Below, one piece after another: positions 22,186-36,310 of a DNA stretch of 37,736 nucleotides (its first letter is position 1; each line of letters starts with the position of its first letter). The translations under genes and the position numbers were made by a program. This DNA comes from Desulforudis sp. (GTDB taxonomy: Bacteria > Bacillota > Desulfotomaculia > Desulfotomaculales > Desulforudaceae): positions 1-37,736 of the forward strand of contig JAHRFU010000136.1 of NCBI GenBank assembly GCA_019084485.1, written 5' to 3'. The notes under the pieces are model-generated. The model did no database searches. It saw nothing but the letters and a program-made list of their open reading frames with translations, and was not told where the DNA came from.

Positions 22186-24483
22186 CTACCGGGGTTTTTG
22201 CGGTTGATTGAAACGGACGAAGGCCGTGGTCCCATCCGGTCCGGTTTCCACGTCGATCTTAGCGTCGTGCCTTAAGGCAATCCGGAAGCAGACGGCCAGT
22301 CCTAGCCCGGTGCCGTAGTCCTTGGTGGTTACGAAAGGCGCGCCGAGTTTTTCGAGAATCTCATCTGGCATTCCCTCCCCCTCGTCACGCACCGACAGCA
22401 CTACAGATTCACCGTCTACGAATGTTTTGATGAATAGATTCCCGCCTGGGTGCATCGCTTCAAGTCCGTTGCGGCCAAGGTTTATGATCAATTGCCGCAT
22501 TTCACTGGCGTCCAGAAGCAGAGGCGGGATATCCCCCAACTCGGTGTGGATGTAGTTGTCCCTAGTGGCGGCGTCCGCCTGGACTAGCGGGAGTAGCGAA
22601 CTGATAATCACATTTAGATTCTGTTCCTGCAGGTTAATGACCTTACCCTTGGCCAGAGAGAGGAACTCCGTAATGATCGCGTTTCCCCGGTCCAGTTCCT
22701 GAATCATCAGGTCGAAGTATGATTTGTATTTACTAAGTTCGGCCTTCTCCCCGAATAGCTGCAGGAAACCGCGTACGCTGGTCATTGGATTGCGGATTTC
22801 ATGGGCGATGCCGGCCGCCATTTCACCGATCAGATCCAGCCGATCCAGGTATGCCATCTGTTTCTCCATCTGTTTACGCTCTGTGATGTCCCGCATGGTC
22901 TGAATGGCCCCGACCAAGTCACCGCTGCTGTCAGAGAGCGGTGAAACTGTTACCCACAAATGCGCCCCCCGGCCGCTGTAGGCCGAAGGCACAAATATTT
23001 CCGTGAAAAGGGTGTCGTCCCGTCTTTCGATCCGCCCATACTCCTTCTCAATCTCCGGGTTATTCTCGAAAACCAGGTCGATCAGAGCCGGCCGGCGCCA
23101 TTGATAAAGGGGCAGGGCATAGGCATAACAGCCCCTGTTGATGATTTCATCCTTGCTCACCCCGGACATTTCCTCCATCGCCCGGTTCCAGGCGATTACT
23201 TTCTGTTCCTTATTCACGGCAAAGGTGGCGTCAGGCAGAAACTCAATGATGTCCACCAGTTGTTGGTGGGAGGCACGCAGGCTTTCTTCGGCCCTCTTCC
23301 GCTCCGTGACGTCCTCCCCGATCCTGGCCAAACCGATGACGCTCCCCTGAGAGTCGCGCAGCAGGGAGTTGTTCCAGTCGATGAGTCGCTGCTCCCCGCT
23401 TCTGGTATGGATCGCCTTTTCACCGTCAGTAGGTAGAATACCCTGTGAGACCTCTTCCACAATCCGTCTGACCTGCTCCCTCCGATCAGCCGGGACAAAA
23501 GTTCCCACCCAGCAACGACCCAAAACGTCCTCCCGTGTCCACCCGGTAAGTTTCAACAAAAAGTCATTGCAGAAGGTCACCCGGCCATCGGTATCCAGAA
23601 TCACCGCCAGAAGCTGGACTCTTTCCAGCATCTCGCGGAACCGACGTTCCGATTCGCGGAGCATTTCGTTGGACTTGTGCAGGGCATCATACTGGTGCTT
23701 AAGCTCGACACGCATTTGGTCGAATGACCGGGCCAGATGCCCGATCTCGTCACGGGTGCTGACTGGAATGCTCGTTTCCAAATCTCCCTGGGCCAAGCGG
23801 TTCGCAGCGCCGACCAGTTTATTAATCGGCCTGGTCAGGGAGTTGGTTAACAGCCAGATGACCCCGATGATGAAAATCATGATCAAGCTGAAAGTGTAAG
23901 CCACATCCTTAATGGCTTCCTCAACCATCCTGTCCACAAAGTGCTTGTTGGCACCCACGTACCAAATGCCGATGATTTCCCCGGCAGCGTCCCGGATCGG
24001 TTTGTAAGCCGCCTGGTACTTCACCCCAACGACCTCGGCCTCTCCGAAGAACTCACCGCCCTCTTCGAGGACCACCCGGCCCACCTCATCGGATACCTTT
24101 GTACCCACAGCCCGCCGTTCATTGCGAATGACATTGGTCGCAATGCGTATATCCCCCTGGAAGATGGTGCAAGTATCACCGGTCAGGCGCCCAATCTCGT
24201 CAACAATGTAGTGGTTCCCGTTCATCAGGGTCTCGCCTTTGAACAGGGCTCCGTCGATGATCGCCCAATCTCCCGGATAGCGGGTCTCCAGGAAGGCCTC
24301 TCCCAGCAACAGATCCCCCCTGGCTTTTTCCACCGCTGCCTGGTTCGCCTCATCCCTGATTTTAGTCATAGTCCAAAACACCGTTGTCACGAGACCCAGG
24401 ATTACCACCAAGCTGATGGTGATGATAAACCGCCAGTGGATAGACTGAAAGTCATAAAACCGTTGTTTGGGGAAGCCTGCCAT
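22186..24483 (-). CDS. Orphan sensor histidine kinase (Cache-HAMP-PAS-PAS-HisKA-HATPase)
   Basis: The 765-residue protein has a first membrane helix (FIITISLVVILGLVTTVFW), an extracellular single-Cache-like domain with DTCTIFQGDIRIATNV and IIGIWYVGANKH, a second helix (IMIFIIGVIWLLT), a HAMP domain (LTRPINKLVGAANRLAQGDL), two PAS domains, a phospho-accepting His near residue 550 (MAAGIAHEIRNPMTSVRGFL) and an ATPase domain (DEGEGMPDEI, DYGTGLGLAV). The last region resembles sporulation kinases that phosphorylate Spo0F or Spo0A. No response regulator is adjacent, so it is an orphan; a link to Spo0A is inference. ATG at 24483 has a weak binding site. Three TTGTCGTA-type half-sites lie just upstream. 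Confidence 0.92.
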   Translation of the reverse strand: MAGFPKQRFYDFQSIHWRFIITISLVVILGLVTTVFWTMTKIRDEANQAAVEKARGDLLLGEAFLETRYPGDWAIIDGALFKGETLMNGNHYIVDEIGRLTGDTCTIFQGDIRIATNVIRNERRAVGTKVSDEVGRVVLEEGGEFFGEAEVVGVKYQAAYKPIRDAAGEIIGIWYVGANKHFVDRMVEEAIKDVAYTFSLIMIFIIGVIWLLTNSLTRPINKLVGAANRLAQGDLETSIPVSTRDEIGHLARSFDQMRVELKHQYDALHKSNEMLRESERRFREMLERVQLLAVILDTDGRVTFCNDFLLKLTGWTREDVLGRCWVGTFVPADRREQVRRIVEEVSQGILPTDGEKAIHTRSGEQRLIDWNNSLLRDSQGSVIGLARIGEDVTERKRAEESLRASHQQLVDIIEFLPDATFAVNKEQKVIAWNRAMEEMSGVSKDEIINRGCYAYALPLYQWRRPALIDLVFENNPEIEKEYGRIERRDDTLFTEIFVPSAYSGRGAHLWVTVSPLSDSSGDLVGAIQTMRDITERKQMEKQMAYLDRLDLIGEMAAGIAHEIRNPMTSVRGFLQLFGEKAELSKYKSYFDLMIQELDRGNAIITEFLSLAKGKVINLQEQNLNVIISSLLPLVQADAATRDNYIHTELGDIPPLLLDASEMRQLIINLGRNGLEAMHPGGNLFIKTFVDGESVVLSVRDEGEGMPDEILEKLGAPFVTTKDYGTGLGLAVCFRIALRHDAKIDVETGPDGTTAFVRFNQPQKPR

Positions 24484-32277: not shown

Positions 32278-32880
32278 TTATTGGCTCTTTTGTATAGAGA
32301 CAACAGGAGGGCGTGTTCCACCACTCGGTACCGCTTTCGTCCACTGGATCGGCTCAGGGCGACATGATCGGTTGTTGACCGGGCTTTCCACAACGGTTGC
32401 CGGGGGTTCAGTAGGCCGCATATCCTTAAACAGCCTTATCCCACCCCGCCGGTACAACCACCAGGCGATTAAGGCGATTACCACGACATGCGGCAGCCCG
32501 GCAAGCGCATACCACAATGACTGGGTCGACAGTTCCCCGATTCGGGTTGCCATCAGAGATAGGACTGCTCTGGTAAGAGTCTGTTCCACTAAAACCAATA
32601 CCGCCACAGAGCAAGCATAGGCCAGAAAAACTCTGTTTAAGGAAATACGCTCCCAAGTACTGATCACTACGGACATCATCATTAAGGAAAACAAGGTATG
32701 GGCCGGAAATGGAGCACCGCTATTTCGGATGACGAAAATGATGCTGAGGAGGAGTAAACCCAGACACACAGTCCGAACCGGATAGACCTTCAGCCCTAAC
32801 AAAGCATAGACCAGGAATACCATGGCCAGGCATTCAGGAATACCTTGTACAATTGCTGATACTACACTGAGGGGTGACAT
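32278..32880 (-). CDS. Multi-pass membrane protein B, AgrC-sensor-like, paralogue of 34877-35353
   Basis: About six membrane helices fill residues 1-155. The protein lines up over this whole part with membrane protein A: IPECLAMVFLVYALLGL, RNSGAPFPAHTLFS, VISTWERISLNRVFLAY and ALIAWWLYRRGGIRLF all have close counterparts. The pattern of a ligand-sensing bundle without kinase resembles the N-terminal domain of clostridial AgrC receptors; this is inference. A cytoplasmic, Pro-rich tail of about 45 residues (from MRPTEPPATVVESP on) is absent in A. ATG at 32880 has GGAGGG upstream. It is the last gene of the agr-type locus, 101 bases after the kinase. Confidence 0.75.
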   Translation of the reverse strand: MSPLSVVSAIVQGIPECLAMVFLVYALLGLKVYPVRTVCLGLLLLSIIFVIRNSGAPFPAHTLFSLMMMSVVISTWERISLNRVFLAYACSVAVLVLVEQTLTRAVLSLMATRIGELSTQSLWYALAGLPHVVVIALIAWWLYRRGGIRLFKDMRPTEPPATVVESPVNNRSCRPEPIQWTKAVPSGGTRPPVVSIQKSQ

Positions 32881-32981
32881 CTAATCCCTCCACGTCCCAT
32901 ATTCACTGCAGACCGCATTCTTATCCAAAGACACTACCCGTAATTCACTAATTGAAACCCAAATCGCGGGAGATTTCGGAC

Positions 32982-34877
32982 CTAACCAACCGGATTCGCT
33001 CGGGGTAATGTGATACGAAAAGTGGTACCTTCGGGGGATGAATCGACGCTCAGGCTGCCCCCGTGGCTTTTGATGATTTCGTTGGAGATGGCCAGACCGA
33101 GACCGGTGCCGGATTCCTTGGTGGTGAAGAAGGGTAGGAAGATCTGGTCCACCTTCTCGGGCGGAATCCCGCACCCGGTGTCGCTCACCAGGAGATAAGC
33201 CTGATCCCCGTCACCGCCACAGGAGATCGTTACCCGCCCACCGGCTGGAGTGGCCTCAAAGGCGTTGTTCACGAGATTAAGCACAACCTGCCGCAGCAGT
33301 TGGGCGTCGGCACGGATCGGTAAGACCTCGGATGGAAGCTCTTTCACCAGTTCGACCTGGCGGCTTAGGCTATCGTTGTAGATCAGTTCCCAGATCCAGA
33401 GCACGGCTTCCCGGAGATCGAGATCCTGGAAAGCAGGTTTGGACGGCTTGGCCATTTGCAGGAAGCGGTTTAGGATTTCCTGCATCCGGCTGATCTCCTC
33501 AAGAACAACGGTCAAGTACGAGGTGGCCTTTTCCACGTTCCGCGACTCAATAGCCAGTTGCGTAAAGCCCTTGATGGACGTCAGGGGATTTCGCAGCTCG
33601 TGCACCACTCCGGCCGCAATCTCTCCGAGCGATGACAGGTTACGGACCCGCTGCAGTTCCAACTCGTGCTTCTTCTGCGCGGTGATATCGTTTACGGTCA
33701 GGACGGTCCAGGCCTGGCCGTCGGGGGCGTTACTCCAGGTACTCCGGTTGATCATTAAGAACCGGTCGTTTATGGAGAGTTCACAGCCGGCGCCCCGCTC
33801 CTTCAGAATCTCCTGTGGAATGTAGCTATTGTGCATTTCCAGGATGTCCGTGCCGTCTCTCCCGTCCAGGTTCCCATCCAGACCCAGGTAGCGACAGGCA
33901 GCGTCGTTGTGGACATGGATCCGGTTTTTCCCGTCCAGGAAGATTACCCCGGTGTTCCACTCGGCCAGCAGCCGGTGCAGGAGAAGCTCCGACTCCCGGC
34001 GCTTTTGCCGATCAGTCATGTTTTGGACCAGGATAACGTCCGCCTTCTCTTCGCCCAAGGAAACCGGGTGACGGCTTACCTGTACCGGCACCGGCAAACC
34101 CTGTTCACCCGACAGATCACCCAGGTAGACCTGATCTTCCGGTTGGGCGGCCAGAGTCCGAATCGTATTCAGGTTATGCTCCGCTTCCCTGTTCGCACTG
34201 CCGGTCAACCGGTCCAGGTAGCGGTTGGCCGAAATGGTCCGTCCCTGCCGGTCCACGGCCAGGACTCCGACCGGGAGGGCGTCGAACACGGTCTGAAGCA
34301 GGAGGGAGGTGTCCGCCAGATCCTGGTTGACCCTCCGGTTGAGTTCAGTAGCTTCCGCCAACAGCCAGGCTACAAAGACCAGCACCGAACAGGTCACCAG
34401 ATAGTCGGCAACCTCCCACTGCGTGAACTGAGCCCGAAAAAGGAAGCCTATTCCCAAGATAGAGACCACGGCAATCGGTACGGCCAGCATTCCCCGGCGG
34501 CCCAGCATCAGTGTGGAGATCACGACCGGGAAAAGAAAGAGGGCAGTCAAGTGATTCAGCTGGTACGGAACAAACAATACGAGCACAACCACTGAGAACA
34601 GGGAGAAAACGGGGAAGGCCAAATGGCTGGGCGTATACTCCGAACCGATGCGCATCAGGCGCAGGCTTACGAGGCAGACAGCCAGGAAAACCAGTGTGAG
34701 GACAAGGCCCTCCGTCGTCCTAACCGGGGGGTATACAGGCCTGTCCGGAAAGATGAGGGAAACCACCATCACGACCGCAAAGAAATTGACCAGCGTAGTA
34801 GTCAGAACCGATGTCGAAAAGAGGTCACTGTAGCGCGGATGTACACTCTCACGATTACGGTTTTCAGAGGAAATCAT
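32982..34877 (-). CDS. Membrane sensor histidine kinase of the agr-type locus (6TM-PAS-PAS-HisKA-HATPase)
   Basis: The 631-residue protein has about six N-terminal helices (for example LVNFFAVVMVVSLIF and YLVTCSVLVFVAWLLAEAT), two PAS domains (VFDALPVGVLAVDRQGRTIS and TGVIFLDGKNRIHVHNDAAC), a phospho-accepting His near residue 422 (IAAGVVHELRNPLTSIKGF) and an ATPase domain (NLVNNAFEATPAGG, DTGCGIPPEKV, GTGLGLAISNEI). This is the KinB/NtrB style rather than the HPK10 class of classical AgrC. ATG at 34877 overlaps the stop of membrane protein A and has AGAGGTG upstream. No response regulator follows, so transfer to a distant partner, perhaps Spo0A, is likely; this is inference. Confidence 0.92.
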   Translation of the reverse strand: MISSENRNRESVHPRYSDLFSTSVLTTTLVNFFAVVMVVSLIFPDRPVYPPVRTTEGLVLTLVFLAVCLVSLRLMRIGSEYTPSHLAFPVFSLFSVVVLVLFVPYQLNHLTALFLFPVVISTLMLGRRGMLAVPIAVVSILGIGFLFRAQFTQWEVADYLVTCSVLVFVAWLLAEATELNRRVNQDLADTSLLLQTVFDALPVGVLAVDRQGRTISANRYLDRLTGSANREAEHNLNTIRTLAAQPEDQVYLGDLSGEQGLPVPVQVSRHPVSLGEEKADVILVQNMTDRQKRRESELLLHRLLAEWNTGVIFLDGKNRIHVHNDAACRYLGLDGNLDGRDGTDILEMHNSYIPQEILKERGAGCELSINDRFLMINRSTWSNAPDGQAWTVLTVNDITAQKKHELELQRVRNLSSLGEIAAGVVHELRNPLTSIKGFTQLAIESRNVEKATSYLTVVLEEISRMQEILNRFLQMAKPSKPAFQDLDLREAVLWIWELIYNDSLSRQVELVKELPSEVLPIRADAQLLRQVVLNLVNNAFEATPAGGRVTISCGGDGDQAYLLVSDTGCGIPPEKVDQIFLPFFTTKESGTGLGLAISNEIIKSHGGSLSVDSSPEGTTFRITLPRANPVG

Positions 34878-35353
34878 CACAGCACCTCTTGCCTTTCTCT
34901 GAACGGTCTGATTCCGCCGCGCCGGTACAACCGCCAGGCGATCAGGACGACCACCAAGGTGTTCGGTAGGGGGACAAGTGCCAACAACAAGGGCTGAGTC
35001 TTCAGCTCATCCACGGGGAGTCCGACGGCCGACACAATTGCCGTGGACAGTACAGTCTCCAAAACAGCTACCAGTATCAGAGTGAAGGCCCAGGCCAGGA
35101 TCACCCTCTGCAAGGCGATGCGTTCCCAGGTGCTGATGGTTACGGACATAACCACAAAGGAAAACAGGGCGTGAGCCGGGAACGGGGCGCCGCTGTTTCG
35201 GACGATATAAACCAGACTCAGGAACAACAAACCCAAACCCACGATTCGTGCCGGACCGGTCCTCAATCCTAACAGGGCATAGACCATAAAGACTATGGCC
35301 AGGCATTCCGGAATCCCCAGCACAAAAGCCGTTACAACGTCGAAAGGCAGCAT
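34877..35353 (-). CDS. Multi-pass membrane protein A, AgrC-sensor-like
   Basis: The 158-residue protein has about six helices and no soluble domain. It begins MLPFDVVTAFVLGIPECLAI and contains RNSGAPFPAHALFSFVVMSV, TISTWERIALQRVILAWAF and LIAWRLYRRGGIRPF. It is clearly homologous to membrane protein B (32278-32880). The fold, with a conserved Pro-Glu in the first helix and a central loop NSGAPFPAH, resembles the sensor bundle of clostridial AgrC proteins cut free from its kinase; I infer a role in sensing the AgrD peptide. ATG at 35353 has GGAGG seven bases upstream. The stop overlaps the kinase start, so the two are translationally coupled and probably form a complex. Confidence 0.75.
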   Translation of the reverse strand: MLPFDVVTAFVLGIPECLAIVFMVYALLGLRTGPARIVGLGLLFLSLVYIVRNSGAPFPAHALFSFVVMSVTISTWERIALQRVILAWAFTLILVAVLETVLSTAIVSAVGLPVDELKTQPLLLALVPLPNTLVVVLIAWRLYRRGGIRPFRERQEVL

Positions 35354-35453
35354 ATCATATCCTCCCCGCACACCTGTAAGACCGGATCGGTTCTCGATAA
35401 AGTCCGCATTGCCTCGCGGAACGCTCTCCCAGAAAAGGTGTTTTCCACAGAGA

Positions 35454-35483
35454 ATGGGGGACGGGCTTTAAACCATCCCCCAT
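35454..35483 (-). other. Strong hairpin after agrD
   Basis: On the minus strand ATGGGGGA (35483-35476) pairs with TCCCCCAT (35461-35454), with a further GG/CC pair inside. No T tract follows, so it is not a classical terminator. It lies 12 bases past the agrD stop and could stabilise the agrBD part of the transcript or cause partial termination before membrane protein A. Confidence 0.55.
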
Positions 35484-35494
35484 CTCCTTCAGAC

Positions 35495-35620
35495 TCAGAT
35501 CCTCTTTGGTGGTTCGGGCTGATAAAAACTCCAAGCACAGGCCGAGGCTGATCCGATCATTGCGAAGAGTGAGAGTACAGTCGTAAGTGTGACGAGTAAA
35601 GCGATTTTCAGTCTACCCAT
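35495..35620 (-). CDS. agrD: AgrD-type cyclic lactone autoinducer pre-peptide
   Basis: This 41-residue ORF starts MGRLKIALLVTLTTVLSLFA and ends SACAWSFYQPEPPKRI. It has the three parts of AgrD: an amphipathic N-terminal leader that anchors it to the membrane, a signal core and an acidic-proline tail. The tail YQPEPPKRI lines up with DEPEVPKEL of Staphylococcus AgrD, placing the cleavage after Phe32 and predicting a five-residue thiolactone Cys28-Ala-Trp-Ser-Phe32. ATG at 35620 has GGAGAGGGGGTG upstream. It begins 6 bases after agrB, the standard order. The tail carries one Glu instead of three acidic residues, a mild difference from the staphylococcal type. Confidence 0.92.
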   Translation of the reverse strand: MGRLKIALLVTLTTVLSLFAMIGSASACAWSFYQPEPPKRI

Positions 35621-35626
35621 CTAAGA

Positions 35627-36271
35627 TCACCCCCTCTCCTTTGTAACCCCTAAAACGGCAGCGCCGTATCCCATTACGCGATCCAAAGCGTCCGTCAGGA
35701 GATGGGCGGGACGGGTCAGCACGAACGCGCTGCAGACCAGCCCCAAAGCACCGGCCGGTACCAGGGTCGGGGACGAAAACACCTGCAGGAGGCCGATCAA
35801 CACCAATGAAACAAAAAGTACGGCCAGGATACTGTATCTTTTCAGTCGTAATCTGCGTTCCGGATCCCCGATCGGATTGACCGGGTTGTCAACCGGGGCC
35901 AGCTTTGCCGCAAGACAGAGTGTAACAGCACCGGCAACCAGTACGAAGTAGAGTTCACTGCCCGGTATGTGAGGGGAGAGTACCACTGCCGACTTCCCCA
36001 GGGCCGGGAACATCAGGGCGGAGGAGGCCGAACAGCGCCAGGGGGTGGAACAGTGGGCACCGCCGGCAAAGTTGCGGACTACGGCATAGGCCCCCAAAGC
36101 CACCAGAGTCTCCGGGAGACAACCCAGCAACCAAGCCGTAATCACCACGGCCAGGGTGGCGAGTAACGTGGATAGAATGCTTTCCGCTCCGAACCTTACG
36201 ACATCGGCCTTGTTCTCATCCAGGGACAACTCCTTGGTCAGATACCGGGCCAGCCTTTGCGCGCTCTCCAC
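35627..36271 (-). CDS. agrB: AgrB-type peptide-processing membrane protease
   Basis: AgrB cuts the C-terminal tail from AgrD and closes the thiolactone. The start MESAQRLARYLTKELSLDEN matches the family, and the catalytic segment RNFAGGAHCSTPWRC has Arg66, His73 and Cys80 spaced exactly as Arg70, His77 and Cys84 of the staphylococcal enzyme. Five or six helices follow. I choose GTG at 36271 because GGAGGTTGG lies upstream and homologues begin at this point; an ATG at 36289 has no binding site. Length is 214 residues, slightly longer than the staphylococcal form. It is the first gene of the signalling locus. Confidence 0.93.
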   Translation of the reverse strand: MESAQRLARYLTKELSLDENKADVVRFGAESILSTLLATLAVVITAWLLGCLPETLVALGAYAVVRNFAGGAHCSTPWRCSASSALMFPALGKSAVVLSPHIPGSELYFVLVAGAVTLCLAAKLAPVDNPVNPIGDPERRLRLKRYSILAVLFVSLVLIGLLQVFSSPTLVPAGALGLVCSAFVLTRPAHLLTDALDRVMGYGAAVLGVTKERG

Positions 36272-36310
36272 GGCGACACCAACCTCCATAAGATACCATA
36301 ACAGAGTAAT

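Follow-up and report, generated by a model that had tools for sequence, protein, structure and literature searches.

A putative free-standing AgrC-type sensor encoded with agrBD and an orphan 6TM-PAS-HisKA kinase in Desulforudis sp.: a candidate split agr receptor with a predicted Spo0 output

The window analyzed here, positions 1-37,736 of contig JAHRFU010000136.1 (assembly GCA_019084485.1, Desulforudis sp.), carries an agr-type peptide signaling locus at 32278-36289, all coordinates being window positions. The agr system is the textbook peptide quorum-sensing system of Gram-positive bacteria, in which a single receptor kinase works with a single LytTR regulator. The locus consists of five minus-strand genes, agrB, agrD, a small membrane protein (A), a histidine kinase (K) and a second small membrane protein (B), and this content and order, proposed in a preliminary description of the same DNA, is confirmed, with matches to Pfam or NCBIfam models for agrB, agrD and K. 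The features, with 5TM and 6TM standing for five and six transmembrane helices and FAM for the name given here to the sensor family of A and B, are the following.

35627..36289, minus strand: agrB, membrane peptidase for processing and export of the AgrD peptide (PF04647, E=8e-38)
35495..35620, minus strand: agrD, pro-peptide of 41 residues with a predicted five-residue Cys thiolactone core, CAWSF, followed by YQPEPP (TIGR04223, E=1e-7, above cut-off; aligned cores)
34877..35353, minus strand: protein A, putative stand-alone 5TM AgrC-type sensor subunit of the FAM family (AlphaFold2 model, association with agrB, same domain fused to GHKL kinases)
32982..34877 (34880 with an alternative GTG start), minus strand: K, orphan 6TM-PAS-PAS-HisKA-HATPase kinase (Pfam)
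34266..34880, minus strand: 6TM N-terminal module of K (homologous to the module of agr-linked GGDEF/HD-GYP proteins)
32278..32880, minus strand: protein B, putative second FAM sensor of 200 residues (57% identity to A)

The agrB gene is the sole AgrB match in the genome at E<=1e-5, and its start may be the ATG at position 36289, which is 18 bases farther upstream than the one noted earlier; A starts at an ATG (158 residues) preceded by GGGGAGG or, alternatively, at a GTG (164 residues). Pfam delimits in K two PAS stretches, a HisKA domain (4.5e-15) and a HATPase_c domain (1e-29). The stop codon of A and the start codon of K overlap as TGATG, and the identical overlap is present in a sister species, a genome of the same genus, in agreement with the translational coupling suggested before; the nearest relative among the compared genomes was a Desulforudis metagenome-assembled genome. 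As had also been noted, no response regulator was found adjoining the five genes: the genome encodes two LytTR (AgrA-type) genes, both on other contigs and neither adjacent to the locus. Nor is there an AgrC here in the usual sense of a sensor and a GHKL kinase in one protein, A having no kinase and K being a HisKA kinase.

Proteins A and B can be aligned without gaps over 153 residues (E=3e-56), which bears out their proposed homology. Their description as membrane proteins lacking any soluble part holds for A, but B ends in a polar, proline-rich C-terminal tail of about 45 residues that is not in A. Likewise, the likening of both to the six-helix AgrC sensor has to be corrected to five helices, as indicated by hydropathy and by the AlphaFold2 model of A (predicted local distance difference test, pLDDT, 91.4; predicted template modeling score 0.87). 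Searches of Pfam and NCBIfam with A and B returned nothing above chance.

The distribution of the family was assessed in 60 whole genomes of the order, searched first with A and then with a 46-member FAM profile. FAM proved to be tightly associated with agr, since 104 of 118 FAM matches are no more than 3 kb from an AgrB gene and a FAM is equally close to 90 of 105 AgrB genes, against a chance expectation of roughly 0.4% per match. In a phylum-wide sample of 299 genomes, FAM was found in 113. Domains resembling FAM also occur in proteins of 287-289 residues at two loci without agrB or agrD (L135:1402-2265 and L138:3948-4817), next to a separate GHKL kinase and a response regulator, and these are possibly receptors for a signal produced elsewhere. 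A search of all genomes with peptide patterns reached the sister species only, because the family is too divergent, and AgrB searches of phage and plasmid sequences found few relatives, with matches on plasmids of Paraclostridium sordellii. An AgrB is also encoded at NZ_CP061968.1:14451-15071 (35% identity to the window AgrB over 93%), on a 27-kb record labelled as a Klebsiella pneumoniae plasmid that looks like contaminating Gram-positive sequence.

About 116 loci were compared, with counts that are approximate because genes were called by a simple open reading frame rule and home-made profiles, and the domains of example proteins in each class were confirmed with Pfam. In class 1 (20 loci), FAM, two more helices and a SPOB_a/GHKL kinase (HATPase_c_5) form one protein, encoded mostly next to AgrB/AgrD and LytTR, and a response regulator is present in 18 of the 20. 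In class 2 (30 loci), a second gene after that of FAM encodes a GHKL kinase of about 280 residues with two transmembrane helices (2TM-GHKL). Class 3 (22 loci, all with AgrB) pairs FAM with a 6TM GGDEF/HD-GYP membrane protein; the full-length proteins almost always retain an intact HD-GYP motif (HDIGK, HHE, G.GYP), and GGDEF or GGEEF was detected by pattern in most of them. Class 4 (28 loci), to which the window locus belongs, pairs FAM with a 6TM PAS/HisKA membrane kinase. No response regulator was found in any locus of classes 3 and 4. The order agrB-agrD-A-kinase, whose conservation in relatives had been named as a check on the preliminary description, recurs in 11 further loci.

The first two classes relate the family to AgrC. 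Hydropathy profiles show five helices in FAM, seven in the fused protein and, in the split kinase, two in addition to the kinase part; the class 2 split falls exactly between helices 5 and 6 of the fused protein. With the NCBIfam staphylococcal AgrC model, residues 81-433 of the fused protein align to AgrC 40-395 of 414 and the split class 2 kinase aligns from residue 143 onward (AgrC 143-397), which indicates co-linearity and is not independent proof for the sensor, because the score comes mostly from the kinase part. The natural class 2 kinases resemble an engineered S. aureus AgrC truncation, TM5-6C (residues 134-430), which has two transmembrane helices and keeps constitutive kinase activity (PMC3841183); the missing half, however, has its own gene in class 2 loci, and the window locus uses a different, 6TM kinase. 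Comparison of the FAM profile with canonical AgrC of Paraclostridium and E. eligens was not significant, and direct homology between FAM and canonical AgrC is therefore not claimed. The presence of the same domain both fused to SPOB_a/GHKL kinases and as a separate gene nevertheless agrees with the proposed separation of sensor and kinase, and supports A and B as AgrC-type sensor parts that appear to have been separated from their kinase.

A second component of the locus, overlooked in the preliminary description, is the N-terminal 6TM module of K. Homology links the 6TM region of class 4 kinases to that of class 3 GGDEF/HD-GYP proteins (hhalign probability 99.9, E=7e-32 over 187 columns), and the module shows no relation to FAM. 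A whole-genome scan with a 6TM profile, built from agr-linked members and hence favoring close relatives, gave 62 matches at E<1e-20, 56 of which lie within 3 kb of AgrB or FAM. The AlphaFold2 model of the module has a pLDDT of 82, and a Foldseek search with it returned only sub-threshold leads to membrane cyclases, which were not used as evidence. The FAM tree has two supported sides, one of GHKL-coupled and one of 6TM-coupled sensors, with few exceptions (two long-branched split rows on the 6TM side), and the output changes within the 6TM side require 8 label changes, at least 5 of them forced by starred branches; at least 3 are required on the 6TM tree. As read from these trees, sensor clades pair with the membrane partner, and it is the cytoplasmic output that has been swapped several times. 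The split receptor proposed at first is supported, and the arrangement is far more widespread than was envisaged.

The likely target of K can be read from its specificity residues. At positions H+7, 8, 11, 12, 14 and 15, K carries TSGFQL, to be compared with TAGFQL in KinA, TSGFQI in KinC and TTGFQL in D. acetoxidans Dtox_1918, all verified Spo0F kinases, the last of which works via Spo0F and Spo0B and not directly on Spo0A (PMC6136694). The inspected class 4 kinases conform to [TA]-x-G-[FY]-Q-[LMFY], from which the kinases of this genome that have a response regulator differ, and in 12 kinases the H-box, read by eye, is HEIRNPM rather than HELRNPL. Spo0A, Spo0F (adjoining an aldolase gene) and Spo0B are all encoded in the genome, and Spo0B carries QVGLQL, the residues reported for D. 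acetoxidans Spo0B. Because of the residues TSGFQL, K would most likely feed Spo0F in a Spo0F-Spo0B-Spo0A relay, not Spo0A directly, which refines the earlier suggestion that the kinase may feed Spo0A. K thus resembles the orphan PAS kinases of the Spo0 system (KinA-E of B. subtilis and those of Desulfotomaculum acetoxidans, PMC6136694) in being an orphan, in its PAS domains, in its T-x-G-F-Q-L signature and in the presence of the relay genes; it differs from them in its agr-restricted 6TM module, in a gene neighborhood that supplies a peptide signal and a separate putative sensor, and in that its transfer to Spo0F is a prediction.

The signal itself also varies with the architecture. The window peptide core is CAWSF and that of the sister species CVWSL. 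Among the AgrD proteins of about 80 loci, a Cys occupies the fifth position before the conserved YQP-like motif in 41 of the 43 cores of classes 3 and 4, and the position one earlier in the other two, whereas in classes 1 and 2 a Cys is found in only 10 of 37 cores, the residue being mostly Ser (Fisher p=8e-11, uncorrected for relatedness). This provides a testable rule, by which loci with 6TM partners would have Cys (thiolactone) peptides and those with GHKL partners mostly Ser (lactone) ones.

Taken together, these observations make it likely that the locus is an agr peptide system with a split and rewired receptor. AgrB would make a Cys thiolactone with the core CAWSF from AgrD, as their families imply. 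Protein A, the putative equivalent of the AgrC-like recognition half, would bind the peptide outside the cell and act laterally, within the membrane, on the 6TM module that K carries, a route suggested by their almost exclusive co-occurrence, by the pairing of their clades and by the coupled translation of A and K. With no response regulator of its own, K would then phosphorylate Spo0F, from which the phosphate would pass to Spo0B and Spo0A, as the specificity residues of K and the relay genes found in the genome indicate, and through this transfer cell density may feed into sporulation. Several observations weigh against this interpretation. By itself, A shows no significant sequence similarity to canonical AgrC. 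Neither sequence nor fold searches of the PDB with A found a match, leaving the model without a structural counterpart there, and the 6TM module of K could itself bind the peptide. At two loci, L058 and L074, the gene map shows agrBD with a HisKA kinase and no FAM, although L074 begins at a contig end and L058 (genome G041) has an adjacent FAM match. Finally, FAM and 6TM distances are correlated given AgrB (partial r 0.45, 0 of 2,000 permutations), which counts in favor of the interpretation as the trace expected of a physical sensor-transducer pair, but shared ancestry is incompletely removed in this comparison, and common descent of the locus contributes to the pattern.

An alternative explanation that we regard as unlikely, though deserving of attention, is that A and B are partners of AgrB in peptide production or export, the part of receptor falling to the 6TM module that the kinase or the GGDEF/HD-GYP protein carries. 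FAM lies near AgrB/AgrD throughout, directly upstream of agrB in most class 3 loci, and the 6TM module has a receptor-like topology and is tied to agr as strictly as FAM is. In fused loci, however, FAM forms the N-terminal part of the kinase, where AgrC has its recognition half; the FAM clades track the membrane partner, GHKL or 6TM; and A is coupled to K, not to agrB. Less probable still is that A or B is not an activating sensor but a negative element, either a decoy receptor or an inhibitor of the kinase, by which a threshold is set. A removable sensor half could act by inhibition, because AgrC with only TM5-6 is constitutively active (PMC3841183), and B in particular is encoded downstream of K, ends in a new C-terminal tail and is a protein that the sister species does without. 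For A, though, inhibition would be a sub-case of sensing rather than an alternative to it, and the conserved family residues and purifying selection of B count against this reading without giving the sign of its effect. That K is an unrelated sporulation kinase neighboring agr by chance, with the peptide acting elsewhere, is very improbable: several orphan kinases elsewhere in the genome do share its specificity residues, one of them in the window, but the same gene order recurs at 11 other loci, the 6TM module is almost confined to agr, the start of K overlaps the stop of A and no other intact AgrC was found, all of which speaks against it.

The other window kinase with these residues is a second orphan HisKA protein, of 765 residues, at 22186-24483, likewise with TSGFQL. 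An AgrC encoded elsewhere and serving the locus was considered as well and rejected, as no intact AgrC was found in the genome, no GHKL kinase (HATPase_c_5) scored above the family cut-off genome-wide and the only other agr-like locus is decayed. That locus, on contig C114 (L128:4412-5572), is a split-agr locus with FAM in two frames, a truncated SPOB_a kinase and an N-terminal agrB fragment; the genome of the same genus has an intact class 2 locus (L025).

The preliminary description had made the duplicated sensors part of a distinct design, and this is not supported. The sister-species locus (L024, genome G001) encodes A (91% identity) and lacks B, so B was rejected as a defining feature of the system. 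In the window, B is intact and under purifying selection (A-B nonsynonymous and synonymous divergence, dN 0.31 and dS 1.31; dN/dS <0.3) and retains the conserved FAM residues. Because the FAM tree sets B as sister to the pair of A proteins (support 100/91), the duplication appears to be older than the split from the sister species, with B since lost there, unless rapid evolution of B has distorted the tree. B is probably a retained second sensor, either a partner in a hetero-oligomer or a receptor whose specificity has changed. Doubled FAM sensors occur in about eight separate lineages, and in three related genomes (loci L050, L056 and L080) the order is FAM-agrD-FAM-agrB-HisKA, with the peptide gene between the two sensors.

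Relative to the agr systems (AgrB, AgrD, AgrC, AgrA) of Staphylococcus, Listeria and Clostridium, the window locus is alike in AgrB, AgrD and a putative multi-helix membrane sensor for the peptide, and the fused FAM relatives are co-linear with AgrC. It differs in having a detached sensor, a kinase of the 6TM-PAS-HisKA and not the GHKL (HPK10) type, and no AgrA; in relatives, a GGDEF/HD-GYP output is possible. In the open-access full text covered by our literature search, neither a split AgrC nor agrBD adjoining GGDEF/HD-GYP genes was reported, which is not proof of novelty. The class 2 loci amount to a natural experiment on the divisibility of AgrC, the cut falling after the last helix of the sensor and before the two that remain, and A offers a small, confidently modeled sensor for structural study, no structure of such a sensor having been found in the PDB. 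Because the same sensor adjoins an ordinary agr kinase or a cyclic di-GMP (c-di-GMP) enzyme in relatives, the sensing half looks like a plug-in part. On balance, we lean towards the view that a free-standing sensor, detached from AgrC, serves in this phylum as a plug-in receptor, that it is paired with a 6TM transducer dedicated to it and that the cytoplasmic end of this transducer has repeatedly been exchanged, being now a Spo0F-directed kinase and now a GGDEF/HD-GYP enzyme, so that agr peptides may control sporulation or c-di-GMP directly and without AgrA. A sensing half with its own gene, found with at least three kinds of output, would predict direct peptide control of both the Spo0 phosphorelay and c-di-GMP.

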